Below, in pieces: positions 8,100 to 43,631 of a DNA stretch of 43,631 nt (position 1 is its first letter; each line of letters starts with the position of its first letter). The stretch spans positions 1 through 43,631 of the forward strand of contig JAIPDR010000006.1 in assembly GCA_021737615.1 (NCBI GenBank), written 5' to 3'. Position numbers and translations under genes: made by a program. Origin of the DNA: Desulfohalobiaceae bacterium (GTDB lineage Bacteria > Desulfobacterota > Desulfovibrionia > Desulfovibrionales > Desulfothermaceae). The notes under the pieces were generated by a model. It did no database searches. It saw nothing but the letters and a program-made list of their open reading frames with translations, and was not told the origin of the DNA.

Positions 8100-8729
8100 A
8101 TGATGCAAATATCATGTCAAGAATGCAGCAAGAGCTTCAACCTGCCCCGGCACAAGATTCCGGATACAGGGATTTTCCGTTTCAGCTGTCCGGCCTGCGG
8201 GGCCAAAAACAGGATCGATGCGAACAAAGAACCCGATGGCCGGACCGCGGCCCCTGAGCAGACTGCAGCCCAGACTCCGGAAAAAAATATCGAACCTGAA
8301 CAGTTTCCACCCGGTTCCAAGGTGGCCTTACTCTATGTCCTGGATCCCGGCTGGTTCGAAGAGGCCAAAGGCTACCTGACGGCACAGGGCTTTCATCTCA
8401 GCCTTGCCCAGTCCCCTGAGGAAGGGGCCCAAAAACTGAGGCTGAACCGGTATCAACTGGTGTTGCTTGAAGAGGGTTACCAAACCGAGGTTCTTCTCCG
8501 GGAAATTTCCCTGTGGCCGGGGCGATACCGGCGAGAAGTCAACTGCCTCCTTCTCGGTGACAGCAGGGAATCATTCGATGCCTATACCGGTTTTCTGCAG
8601 GGGGTCAACACCTATCTGTCCAAGAAGGACAAAGACCGGGCCGAACAGATCCTTGATCAGGCCCGGGACGATTTCGCCAGGTACCTTAAACCCTGGCATG
8701 CAGCCGCAGATCATGAAACCGGAGCCTGA
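8100..8729 (+). CDS. Zinc-ribbon protein with degenerate receiver-like domain
   Basis: 209-residue protein of unassigned function. Residues 1-40 form a zinc ribbon of the type found at the start of many delta-proteobacterial regulators (CQEC at 6-9, then FNLPRHKIPDTG and CPAC). After a Gln/Pro/Ala-rich linker, residues about 75-195 read like a CheY-type receiver (KVALLYVLDPGWFEEAKGYL, then YQLVLLEEGY), but the phosphoacceptor Asp position carries Glu, so it is probably not phosphorylated. The position directly after two pilus motor ATPases suggests a role in regulating motility, by context only. Two ATGs stand in tandem at 8100 and 8103. It could equally be an adaptor unrelated to pili. Confidence 0.75.
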   Translation: MMQISCQECSKSFNLPRHKIPDTGIFRFSCPACGAKNRIDANKEPDGRTAAPEQTAAQTPEKNIEPEQFPPGSKVALLYVLDPGWFEEAKGYLTAQGFHLSLAQSPEEGAQKLRLNRYQLVLLEEGYQTEVLLREISLWPGRYRREVNCLLLGDSRESFDAYTGFLQGVNTYLSKKDKDRAEQILDQARDDFARYLKPWHAAADHETGA

Positions 8730-39780: not shown

Positions 39781-39867
39781 GCCGAAGTGGTGGAACTGGT
39801 AGACACGCTAGGTTCAGGGTCTAGTGGGCAGTAGCCCGTGGGAGTTCGAATCTCCCCTTCGGCACCA
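39781..39867 (+). tRNA. tRNA-Leu (anticodon CAG)
   Basis: Class II tRNA with a long variable arm. The acceptor stem is GCCGAAG with CTTCGGC, discriminator A, and an encoded CCA at 39865-39867. The anticodon stem-loop is CTAGG-TTCAGGG-TCTAG with anticodon CAG. The T arm has GTTCGAATC. It is transcribed together with the tRNA-Phe gene 58 bp downstream. Confidence 0.95.
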
Positions 39868-39925: not shown

Positions 39926-40001
39926 GCCGAGGTAGCTCAGTCGGTAGAGCAGGGGACTGAAAATCCCCGTGTCGGCAGTTCAATTCTGTCCCTCGGCACC
40001 A
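39926..40001 (+). tRNA. tRNA-Phe (anticodon GAA)
   Basis: 76-nt tRNA including an encoded CCA. The acceptor stem is GCCGAGG with CCTCGGC. The D arm contains GCTCAGTCGGTAGAGC. The anticodon stem-loop is GGGGA-CTGAAAA-TCCCC, giving GAA. The T loop is TTCAATT. It is the last tRNA before the region with the DUF499 gene and a plausible integration point. Confidence 0.95.
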
Positions 40002-40009
40002 GAAAAAAC

Positions 40010-40046
40010 AAAGGCTTACGGCAACAGTCGTAAGCCTTTTTCTTTT
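40010..40046 (+). terminator. Intrinsic terminator of the tRNA operon
   Basis: AAGGCTTACG (40011-40020) and CGTAAGCCTT (40029-40038) form a perfect 10-bp stem with an 8-nt loop. A T-rich run follows. Confidence 0.9.
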
Positions 40047-40636
40047 TAAGGGCTATTTTGAATCACGTCTGGGGTCAGGTTTTATTTTTTGAGCCAAACT
40101 CGGCCCCTTCACAACAGATTGAAATATCTGCTTTTCTGTATCTCGCACATCGCCTCACGTCCGGGCCGCCCATTGGCATGCGTTCTGGACAGGTTCTCGG
40201 TCCAATCCAGAGAATCGCCGCAGTGTCGTGAAGTGGCTGCCTCCTGTTCCTGTGGGGTTCGGATGGGAGGAAGTCGAGAGAGAGGTGGTCTTGACTGACT
40301 GAATGTATTTTCCAATTCCGTGGAGTGAGGGGATATGAGTGACAATCAGATCTACTCTCGATTCCCCAAAGGATGAAAATCGAGTTCTCTCTGTTCAATT
40401 CAATTTAAATCTGGAGATACCTCTTTCGAGGCCTTGCCTAACACAGGCTTTGATGATACGGCTATCTCAATGTTTTTATTACAATATGATAAGAATCAGC
40501 TTGTCTGAATCCCGATCTGCTTATCAGTACAAATTGAAAACCTCTCAAAGGGCAAGCCACCCCCTGACTTCCAGAGCGTACGCAATTTCAGGCTCAAAAT
40601 TCAAGTAAGTCGTATATAAAGCCTCAGGAGACATCC
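40047..40636. other. Degenerate region between the tRNAs and the DUF499 gene
   Basis: 590 bp with only short open frames that look like chance. At about 40070-40080 a GGGGTCAGGT motif is present, which I associate with ends of REP-associated (Y1/RAYT-type) transposase units. The minus strand from 40345 to 40110 gives short, frameshifted fragments that could be decayed from such a gene (not proven). The right half is more AT-rich. An AGGAG at 40626-40630 belongs to the next gene. Confidence 0.35.
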
Positions 40637-43631
40637 ATGCCGCCCCTGCCCACCATCTTTGACATCTGCACCCCACGTGAAGATGTGATCCAAGGCGCGA
40701 TCACCGAGTCGGACTTTGCCGCTGACCTGGCTCAGGTCCTGCGGAAAGACGCTCCGGAGGAATACACAAACCCGGTTCGATTCTTTGCCAACACCCATCC
40801 CACCCGGGGTCTGAAAGACCTGCTCCTGAACGTCTGCCGGCGCCTCAATTCCAGCAGCGACCAGATTGCCTCAATTTTCCGCCTGGATACCAATTACGGA
40901 GGCGGAAAGACCCATGCTCTGATCGCTCTGACCCATGCCGTCCAGGGCATGCAGGACGTGCCCAATGCCGGGGAATTCATTGCCTCCAAAGACATGATCC
41001 GGGACAGGGTTCGCATTGCGGCCTTTGACGGAGAAAATGCCGATCCCACAAACGGGCGGCTTCTCGGCGACGGCATCCGGGCCTACACCCCATGGGGGGA
41101 AATCGCCTATGCTCTCAATGGAATTGAGGGCTATGAGCTCATCCGCAGAAGCGACCTGGAAGGCGCCGCCCCTGGTTCAGAGACCATCAGGGAGCTCTTT
41201 GGAGGCGACCCCACGCTGATCCTTCTGGATGAACTCTCGGTCTACCTGCGCAAGCTCAAGGCCAGGCATCGAGAACGGGTTGGAGGCCAGTTGACCGCCT
41301 TTTTGACCTCTTTGTTCAAGGCGGTTGAATCGACACCCAATGCAGCTCTGGTCTATACCCTGGCCATTGGCAAAGGCGGGGTGGCCACGGACGCCTACAC
41401 CGAGGAAAACCAGTTCATCGCGGACAAGATGGAAGAGGCGGAAAGCGTTTCCGCCCGCAAAGCCACCCTGCTTGATCCCACTGAAGAGGACGAGACGGTC
41501 AAGATTTTGCAGCGACGGCTCTTTACTTCCATTGACGAGACAAAGGCCAAGGCCGTTATCGAGGCCTATCGCCGGATGTGGTCAAACCAGAAGGAGCACC
41601 TGCCCGGCACTGAAGCCCATGCCGGCGTGCTGGAGAGCTTTGAGAGGGGCTATCCCCTGCATCCTGAACTTATCGATATCCTCAAGGAAAAGACCTCCAC
41701 CCTTGGTAACTTTCAACGGGTTCGGGGCATGCTCCGACTTTTGGCCAGGACCGTGGCCAGGCTCTGGGCGCAGAAGCCATCCGAGGCCTCTGCCATCCAC
41801 CTGCATCATGTTGATCTTTGCCATGAGCCCATCCGGCAGGAAATCGTGACCAAGCTGGGGCAGCAGGCCTTTGTCCCGGCTCTGCGGGCCGACATTGCCG
41901 CTGTGGAACGCGACCAGCCGTCCCTGGCCCAGGAACTGGACAAGCAGTTCTACGCCGGACTGCCGCCATACGGCTCCTATGTGGCCCGGACTATCTTCTT
42001 CCATACCCTGGCCTTTAACGAGAGCCTCAAGGGGGCCGGCCGGGATCAGATCCGTTTTGCCATTCTGTCTCCTGGAACCGACATCAGTTTTATTGACGAC
42101 GCGATCAGACGTTTTGTCCAGGCCTCGGCCTACCTTGACGATCGTCCCAATGCCCCGCTTCGCTTTCTGACCGAGGCCAATCTGACCCAGATGGTCAGAC
42201 GCCAGGAAAAACAGGTTGACCCAGGCGAAGCCAGGGCCCAGCTCAACGATCGGATCAAGAGTATCTTCGGCGGGCAGACCCTGAATCTGATCCCGTTTCC
42301 GAGCATGTCCAACGAGATTCCGGATGATGCCGGCGAAAACATGCCCGTCCTGGCCCTCATCAATTACGACGCGGCTGAGGTCAGCGGCGAGCGGATCAGG
42401 CTCCCGGATTTGATCAAGCGCTTGTACCGGGAAAAGGGGGCCAGTGGTGACCTGCGCATGAACCGCAATACCCTGGCCTTTGTGGTGGTGGATGCCCAGC
42501 GCAAGGACGAAATGCGCAGAAAAATGACCCGACGTCTGGCCCTGGGGATGCTCAGGGACCCGCAGCGGCAACAGGAGCTGGCTGAATACCAGCAGGACCG
42601 TCTCAAGGAATGGTACCAGCGCTCAGAGCAGGAACTGGCCCTGTCCATCCAGCAGGCCTACCGGCACATCTTTTATCCGACCCGAAACAGAGTTGAAGGG
42701 GCGGACGTGGATCTCGGCCACACGGTCATCGAAGTCCAAAGCGCCTCAGACGCTCCAGGCAACGGGCAAAAGCAGGTGGTCAGGGTCCTGCGGGACATCA
42801 ACAAGCTCCGGCTTCCTGAAGATACTCCGGATTCTCCCATTTATATTCGGGACCGAACCCCTCTCAAGAAGGGATACATCTCCACGGCTGCCTTGCGTAA
42901 TGAATTTCGGCGCGATCCGTCTCTGCCGATTCTGGTGGGCCATGATGTCTTCATCAAAGGCATCAGGCAGGGAATCGAACAAGGCGAATTTGTCTACACA
43001 AGCGGCGATCTCCTCTGGGGCAAAGGCGATCCCTGGGCAGACATCAAGATCGATGAACAGTCCTTTGTATTCACCACAGCCTACGCCAGAGAAAACGAGA
43101 TCTGGCCGCGGCCGGCACCCGAAGCAAGTCCTCAGCCTGAACCGGAAGCTTCAGACCAGCCGGGCTCTGAACCTGAACCTCCAGGTCCCGGGGTTCATGA
43201 ACCTGAACCAGAGCCCCCGCCGCAGGAGCATGTTTTTCACGAAGAAGGCGTACTCAAGGAGGCCCTGACCAAAATCTGGGAACGGCTCAGAACCAGGAAC
43301 TATGAAACTGTTGTCTCTCTGACCCTGAAGATCTACGATGCCGGTGACGGGTTCAAGCTCCTGGGCCTGGTGGGCGCCATCCCCAAGGCGGACAAGCAGG
43401 TGAATATCCAGGGAGAATATGAGACCGCCGAGGGCAGTGAGCTGAGCATCGAGTTCAAGGGGAAGGTTCCTGACGCCCAGCCGGTCAAGGACTTCCTCGA
43501 TCCCCAACTCCGGGCGGCAGAAGAAAAGGACGTGACCATCACCTTTGACCTCAACTTCAATCCAGGCCTGCCCATGCAGGGGGACGAACCGGAAAAAATG
43601 ACCCAGCGCTTGACCAGGTTCGGCACCGGGG
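40637..43631 (+). CDS. DUF499-family P-loop ATPase, 3' end outside window (defence-associated)
   Basis: Partial gene of at least 998 codons running off the right edge without a stop. ATG 40637 has AGGAG six bases upstream. The P-loop is unusual and characteristic of DUF499/COG1483: YGGGKTHAL, with GGGKTH at 88-93, and Walker B LILLDELS with Asp198 and Glu199. A helical ATPase module follows to about 400. The C-terminal part contains HIFYPTRNRV, a short winged-helix-like stretch (KGYISTAALRNEFRRDP), a Pro/Glu linker (about 830-860) and a final beta-rich region. Family members are encoded with DUF1156-type DNA methylases and other nucleases or helicases in defence islands. The exact system cannot be read because the following genes are not in the window. 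Confidence 0.85.
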   Translation, partial: MPPLPTIFDICTPREDVIQGAITESDFAADLAQVLRKDAPEEYTNPVRFFANTHPTRGLKDLLLNVCRRLNSSSDQIASIFRLDTNYGGGKTHALIALTHAVQGMQDVPNAGEFIASKDMIRDRVRIAAFDGENADPTNGRLLGDGIRAYTPWGEIAYALNGIEGYELIRRSDLEGAAPGSETIRELFGGDPTLILLDELSVYLRKLKARHRERVGGQLTAFLTSLFKAVESTPNAALVYTLAIGKGGVATDAYTEENQFIADKMEEAESVSARKATLLDPTEEDETVKILQRRLFTSIDETKAKAVIEAYRRMWSNQKEHLPGTEAHAGVLESFERGYPLHPELIDILKEKTSTLGNFQRVRGMLRLLARTVARLWAQKPSEASAIHLHHVDLCHEPIRQEIVTKLGQQAFVPALRADIAAVERDQPSLAQELDKQFYAGLPPYGSYVARTIFFHTLAFNESLKGAGRDQIRFAILSPGTDISFIDDAIRRFVQASAYLDDRPNAPLRFLTEANLTQMVRRQEKQVDPGEARAQLNDRIKSIFGGQTLNLIPFPSMSNEIPDDAGENMPVLALINYDAAEVSGERIRLPDLIKRLYREKGASGDLRMNRNTLAFVVVDAQRKDEMRRKMTRRLALGMLRDPQRQQELAEYQQDRLKEWYQRSEQELALSIQQAYRHIFYPTRNRVEGADVDLGHTVIEVQSASDAPGNGQKQVVRVLRDINKLRLPEDTPDSPIYIRDRTPLKKGYISTAALRNEFRRDPSLPILVGHDVFIKGIRQGIEQGEFVYTSGDLLWGKGDPWADIKIDEQSFVFTTAYARENEIWPRPAPEASPQPEPEASDQPGSEPEPPGPGVHEPEPEPPPQEHVFHEEGVLKEALTKIWERLRTRNYETVVSLTLKIYDAGDGFKLLGLVGAIPKADKQVNIQGEYETAEGSELSIEFKGKVPDAQPVKDFLDPQLRAAEEKDVTITFDLNFNPGLPMQGDEPEKMTQRLTRFGTG

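Follow-up and report, generated by a model that had tools for sequence, protein, structure and literature searches.

The operon that opens at the right end of the window, the whole 43,631-nucleotide stretch that was analyzed, is by its gene content a DUF499-centred BREX-related (BR/Hma-like) system that fits none of the three published types. With a probability of roughly three in four, we read it as a restriction-modification-like anti-phage system of the DUF499-centred BREX-related class that forms a separate lineage marked by the small protein DUF7680, whose core would scan and cut unmarked DNA and whose internal slot would hold exchangeable modules. Such a system cannot be called entirely new, since DUF499/DUF1156/helicase operons already appear in the literature under the names Hma (PMC8565338) and BREX-Related (PMC12839542). 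The original prediction of an undescribed variant thus holds in part: the DUF7680-marked lineage appears to be the new element, whereas the kind of system is already known.

The first gene of the operon encodes a DUF499 (HmaC/BrxC-like) AAA+ ATPase at 40637–43631 on the plus strand, and its reading frame is open up to the contig end, which cuts off the 3′ end and leaves 998 amino acids within the window. The window is the entire contig C153 of an assembly of 280 contigs (3.84 Mb, about 90% complete). Contig C194 begins with exactly the 139 bases that end C153, and this sequence had no further copy in the assembly. Across this overlap, the frame ran on for 12 residues, giving a protein of 1010 amino acids in all, with a stop 38 bases into the next contig (L003:177) and a 4-base overlap with the start of the DUF7680 gene. 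In the related genome G128, a single contig carries both the ATPase and the DUF7680 gene, again overlapping by 4 bases, and the proteins are 79 to 81% identical. On the strength of the exact unique overlap, the continuing frame, and this synteny, rather than of reads, C194 (locus L003, 8701 bp) was taken as the continuation; an overlap search of the assembly found no contig extending C194 further. The GGGKTH motif was located at ATPase residues 88–93 and was present in 58/61 relatives, and an ILLDEL motif (Walker B) was seen in the translation. The protein matched DUF499 in Pfam (4.5e-40) and, in PADLOC, HmaC as the best profile (4.3e-93, 311 bits) and DUF499 (1.4e-34), and it reached 179 bits against the NCBIfam profile DUF499_antiphage, whose cut-off is 1200. 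These results confirm the proposed P-loop ATPase as an intact DUF499 AAA+ protein, and its family assignment was upheld by Pfam and PADLOC.

The operon runs in the order DUF499 ATPase, DUF7680, two DUF488 genes, DUF1156 N6-adenine methylase, and HKD/PLD-SNF2 helicase, all on the plus strand. The DUF7680 gene (L003 174–665; Pfam 7.9e-46) is followed by the DUF488 genes (L003 1222–1812 and 1809–2264), a pair that corresponds to the PADLOC candidates PDC-M45B and PDC-M45C. The methylase (L003 2276–5215) carries DPTAGGG and DPPY motifs, and its best PADLOC profile was HmaB (226 bits). The SNF2 helicase with an N-terminal HKD/PLD nuclease begins at L003 5622 and is still open at 8701, with 1026 of about 1067 amino acids present; since its 3′ end (about 40 amino acids) lies beyond the contig, the end of the operon was not seen. 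Its nuclease region is recognizable from an HKD-like motif at residue 144, a single motif, and a PLDc_2 match of 26.1 bits, just under the Pfam cut-off of 27. The presence of a DUF1156 methylase and a PLD (HKD)-SNF2 helicase on the next contig agrees with the partners that had been forecast from the ATPase alone. DUF3780, one of the domains that had been suggested for the search, failed to appear: the small gene is DUF7680, and neither DUF3780 nor PglZ was found in the source genome at its estimated completeness. A 134-amino acid reverse ORF at L003:655–1059 was without a Pfam match. The motifs GGGKTH, DPTAGGG, DPPY, DEVGLGKT, DEAH, and H.K...GS.N all occur in the proteins of this operon and are kept by nearly all relatives. 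The copy in the source genome might be a decaying, non-functional remnant, as an AT-rich foreign insert, a 556-bp non-coding gap within the operon, and the fragmented assembly could suggest; however, the core reading frames are all open and the catalytic motifs are intact, which makes decay very improbable.

Upstream of the operon, the two tRNA genes were the only Rfam families detected around it. tRNA-Leu (CAG; 39781–39867, plus strand) is a flanking chromosomal gene, and tRNA-Phe (GAA; 39926–40001, plus strand), separated from it by only 58 bp, is the probable insertion point of an island. The ATPase starts 635 bp past tRNA-Phe, and the intervening leader region (40002–40636, GC 0.457) contained no ORF longer than 107 amino acids and no Rfam match. 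Two tRNAs followed by about 590 bp of degenerate DNA had been described here; the tRNAs are real, but the stretch measures 635 bp, and the label "degenerate" is not supported because no remnant gene was recognized in it. DNA similarity to the same-genus genome G211 stopped at about 40042, right after a terminator-like repeat behind tRNA-Phe. In G128, which belongs to the same family, the same tRNA-Phe opens a 27-kb segment with a PglZ gene (L248 3479 to L249 11998, contig C17), and a repeat of the tRNA-Phe 3′ end, about 48 bp long, closes the segment. By eye, genes of this segment resembled those of BREX Type-1 (BrxB, BrxC, PglX, and BrxL) together with a tyrosine integrase. In G211, two genes that by eye looked like an AbiEi/AbiEii toxin-antitoxin pair (L250 608–2421) lie between tRNA-Leu and tRNA-Phe. 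The insertions in both genomes at the tRNA-Phe/tRNA-Leu site indicate a recurrent insertion point in the family, and the window may plausibly have an island there as well. The proposal that the operon sits on a tRNA-Phe-anchored island is accordingly kept as plausible: the integrase-like gene and the repeat at the same tRNA-Phe in G128 speak for it indirectly, whereas the source assembly, in which the far end of the island is not assembled, yielded no further att copy of this tRNA.

DUF7680 exceeded the Pfam cut-off in 13/297 genomes of the class. When about 85,000 species genomes were scanned with two peptide patterns, 175 DUF7680 relatives were confirmed, a number that is therefore a lower bound. 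Of these, 80 were kept; they came from 13 named phyla, chiefly Pseudomonadota, Acidobacteriota, and Cyanobacteriota. The ATPase lay directly upstream of DUF7680 in 76/77 testable loci, and the methylase followed downstream on the same strand in 60 loci, with the HKD helicase next where assembled. More distant versions of DUF7680 (142–223 amino acids) were found elsewhere in the source phylum; Nostoc, Rhodococcus, and haloarchaea carry such versions on plasmids, for which public annotation calls the small gene a "hypothetical protein". Some loci departed from this pattern. In L107 and L116, the ATPase-DUF7680 pair is preceded by the methylase and helicase genes, which are encoded on the other strand, and in L019 (3971–5577), DUF7680 is followed by a Fic-like gene and no upstream ATPase ORF was recognized, possibly a decayed system. 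The HKD helicase gene of G128 overlaps at its end with a gene for a reverse transcriptase (RVT_1, 3e-12; L020 12474–13862). No literature naming DUF7680 was found, and likewise none for PDC-M45. The DUF7680-marked lineage thus appears to be widespread, without a separate description that we could find.

The gap between the DUF7680 and methylase genes differed greatly among these loci. In 60 DUF7680 loci, it was at most 60 bp in 18, longer than 250 bp in 40, and longer than 1 kb in 37, with a maximum of 9.6 kb, whereas in DUF3780 systems the same slot was at most 60 bp in 21/26 and longer than 250 bp in 5/26 (Fisher p 6e-5 for slot filling, a guide only, as the sequences are related). One intact DUF7680 operon whose slot is empty comes from the cultured Bradyrhizobium mercantei (L113). 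The slot contained genes for Fic (L020), Schlafen AlbA_2 (L021 and L082), ParE toxin (L023), IrrE/HTH (L024 and L067), PIN (L045), and SocA/Panacea antitoxin (L037) proteins and for TPR/STAND-like ATPases; 8–9 PtuA-like ATPases and 3 GmrSD proteins were counted among 116 slot proteins. The DUF488 pair that occupies the slot in the source genome has about 36% GC in an operon of 58% GC (GC 0.35–0.37 and GC3 about 0.29, against 0.55–0.59 and 0.60–0.75 in the core genes), and DNA similarity to the Fic-carrying relatives ends at the DUF7680 stop codon. Judged by composition and alignment, the pair looks like a recent cargo exchange. DUF488 relatives were also found away from DUF499 (L252, L254, L256, and L257) and were paired in 3/6 loci looked at, suggesting that the pair is probably an independent module. 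At L254, the gene adjoining the DUF488 relative weakly matches a dual-OB domain. Between the methylase and helicase lies a second gap, used less often, which exceeded 250 bp in 14/42 loci; no conserved non-coding element was supported in it, and the gaps of relatives did not align. By eye, this second gap appeared to contain a HicAB-like pair in G128 (L020 8757–9282) and a ParE/antitoxin-like pair in G219 (L022 8480–10036), and in a Type-2 system, two genes between DUF3780 and the methylase resembled those for a PIN toxin and an antitoxin (L182 2140–2914).

We propose, at somewhat better than even odds, that the slot genes act as backups triggered when the core fails. They may instead be hitch-hikers, insertions that the operon simply tolerates and that are functionally unconnected with the core, and this is a serious contender: the slot is empty in 18/60 loci, its contents are highly diverse, and the DUF488 pair also occurs apart from any DUF499 gene. 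However, toxin, abortive-infection, and defence families are abundant in the slot, and the insertions cluster between DUF7680 and the methylase, while the ATPase and DUF7680 genes are rarely separated (unsplit in 76/77 loci). A backup role would have a parallel in EcoprrI, in which PrrC is a guard toxin embedded in a restriction locus. DUF7680 loci resemble PrrC/EcoprrI-type loci in that independent toxin-like genes are lodged between core restriction genes; they differ in their core machinery, and a guard function for the DUF7680 slot genes is only proposed.

DUF7680, a family to which Pfam assigns no function, was compared with DUF3780, for which PMC12839542 describes four strands and five helices, found no homologue, and proposes a role as a reader module. 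AlphaFold2 models were built from separate alignments of 48 DUF7680 sequences (mean pLDDT 88) and 26 DUF3780 sequences (mean pLDDT 86), and both comprised nine elements in identical order. The DUF7680 model has strands at 19–28, 31–39, and 51–57, a helix at 58–74, a strand at 87–92, and helices at 94–107, 113–125, 128–140, and 144–156; the DUF3780 model has strands at 20–25, 33–38, and 51–57, a helix at 59–79, a strand at 90–95, and helices at 96–109, 114–126, 129–143, and 152–161. Profile-profile comparison gave a weak, colinear match over about 100 columns around an EE..WL motif (p 0.0017 to 0.0035, and 0.018 to 0.057 under other alignment choices). The full DUF7680 set scored against DUF3780 above 59 overlapping control comparisons, and one intermediate sequence gave p 6e-4. 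The predicted models and profiles together make it quite likely that DUF7680 and DUF3780 share ancestry. With the DUF7680 model as query, Foldseek returned nothing at E ≤ 0.001 from viral or PDB structures, and the fold therefore gives no hint of DUF7680 function.

The operon probably serves in defence, a reading for which we counted a gene order that is conserved across many phyla and recurs on plasmids of bacteria and archaea, the intact motifs, and the related published systems, whose defence role has been reported (PMC12839542). In the proposed mechanism, the DUF1156 N6-adenine methylase, which has a DPPY motif, would label the DNA of the host, and the DUF499 ATPase, an ORC/Cdc6-like AAA+ scaffold, would assemble a scanning complex with DUF7680 on unmarked DNA. 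DUF7680, which takes the place of DUF3780 in the operon, may be a small adaptor or reader with the DUF3780 fold. Translocation along unmarked DNA and its cleavage would fall to the SNF2 motor and the HKD nuclease at its N terminus. The slot would serve as an exchange site for independent toxin-antitoxin, abortive-infection, and defence modules, which might act as backups when the core is inhibited. We infer self/non-self discrimination by methylation, complex formation, and defence activity from domain content and conserved motifs. This analysis gives genomic context to a Pfam family that lacks a functional annotation, proposes a relative for DUF3780, which had none in a 2026 survey (PMC12839542), and points to a widespread lineage missed by NCBIfam cut-offs. 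It also marks the DUF7680/methylase gap as a place to seek new toxins and defence genes.

With regard to classification, PMC12839542 (Rakesh and Krishnan) distinguishes three DUF499-centred BR types. Type-1 BR, which is Hma, has a helicase without an N-terminal HKD (TUDOR instead) and usually with a C-terminal PD-(D/E)XK nuclease; Type-2 BR has a helicase with an N-terminal HKD and a standalone DUF3780 in 98%; and Type-3 BR has PglZ plus iSTAND. Neither DUF7680 nor DUF488 is mentioned in the main text of that paper. The window operon combines a DUF499 ATPase, a DUF1156 N6-methylase, and an SNF2 helicase in one locus and so belongs to the BR class. In an unrooted ATPase tree, 22 DUF7680 rows formed one branch (SH-aLRT 83), the Hma-type rows formed their own branch (99, with one long row unplaced), and the DUF3780 rows formed a third (100). 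The unrooted methylase tree agreed (96, 99, and 100), with one cyanobacterial plasmid row unplaced. Grouping of the ATPase with Type-1/Hma ATPases was rejected, as the branches are separate (83 versus 99), and grouping with DUF3780-linked ATPases was likewise not seen in the tree. The architecture is thus common with Type-2, as gene order and HKD are shared, but the grouping of ATPase and methylase is not, as the trees are separate. Because both trees are unrooted and were built without Type-3 BR and BrxC, a fourth lineage is something we infer from them and not something they prove. We therefore offer only tentatively, at rather less than even odds, the wider view that DUF7680 systems may be a fourth, ancient DUF499-centred lineage of bacteria and archaea, with a small subunit homologous to DUF3780, an "HKD helicase plus small subunit" plan common to two lineages, and a core that would act as a guarded platform, its internal slot reloaded with abortive or defence modules, here the DUF488 pair.

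Among the known systems, Type-3 BREX (BrxC, BrxXI/PglXI, BrxHII, and PglZ) has, by the account in PMC12839542, ATPase, methylase, and helicase classes related to those of the operon, but it differs in having PglZ. Type-3 BR/BREX membership was rejected because PglZ was absent from the source genome, which is about 90% complete, and no Type-3 locus was present among the sampled genomes.

Type-1 BR (PMC8565338, PMC12839542) shares the DUF499 ATPase, the DUF1156 N6-methylase, and the SNF2 helicase with the operon described here. That the operon is a plain, already catalogued Type-1 BR/Hma system with incidental extra genes could be argued from the best PADLOC profiles, HmaC for the ATPase and HmaB for the methylase, and from both proteins being closer to Hma-type than to DUF3780-type proteins. 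This is improbable, however, because Hma-type loci of the source phylum have the reverse order (helicase-methylase-ATPase), 0/8 Hma helicases had the HKD-like motif, which all DUF7680 and DUF3780 helicases examined contained, and DUF7680, missing from Hma, is present throughout a lineage with its own branch in both trees.

Type-2 BR (PMC12839542; NCBIfam NF042962–NF042964) is alike in the N-terminal HKD on its SNF2 helicase, in a small subunit between ATPase and methylase with the same predicted element order, and in gene order, which in the source phylum is ATPase-small gene-methylase-helicase for both DUF3780 and DUF7680 loci. These identities would also be expected if the operon were a Type-2 BR sub-branch in which DUF3780 had diverged past recognition into DUF7680. 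We consider such a sub-branch unlikely, as DUF3780 systems have ATPases and methylases on a distant branch of their own, the three NCBIfam Type-2 equivalogs scored far under their cut-offs (179/1200, 219/1000, and 368/1100 bits), and DUF3780 itself is reported in nearly all Type-2 systems. The separate-lineage reading is thus preferred, and the two kinds of system differ in their small subunit, in the branches of their ATPases and methylases, and in the slot behind the small gene, which is filled in 5/26 Type-2 loci compared with 40/60 DUF7680 loci.
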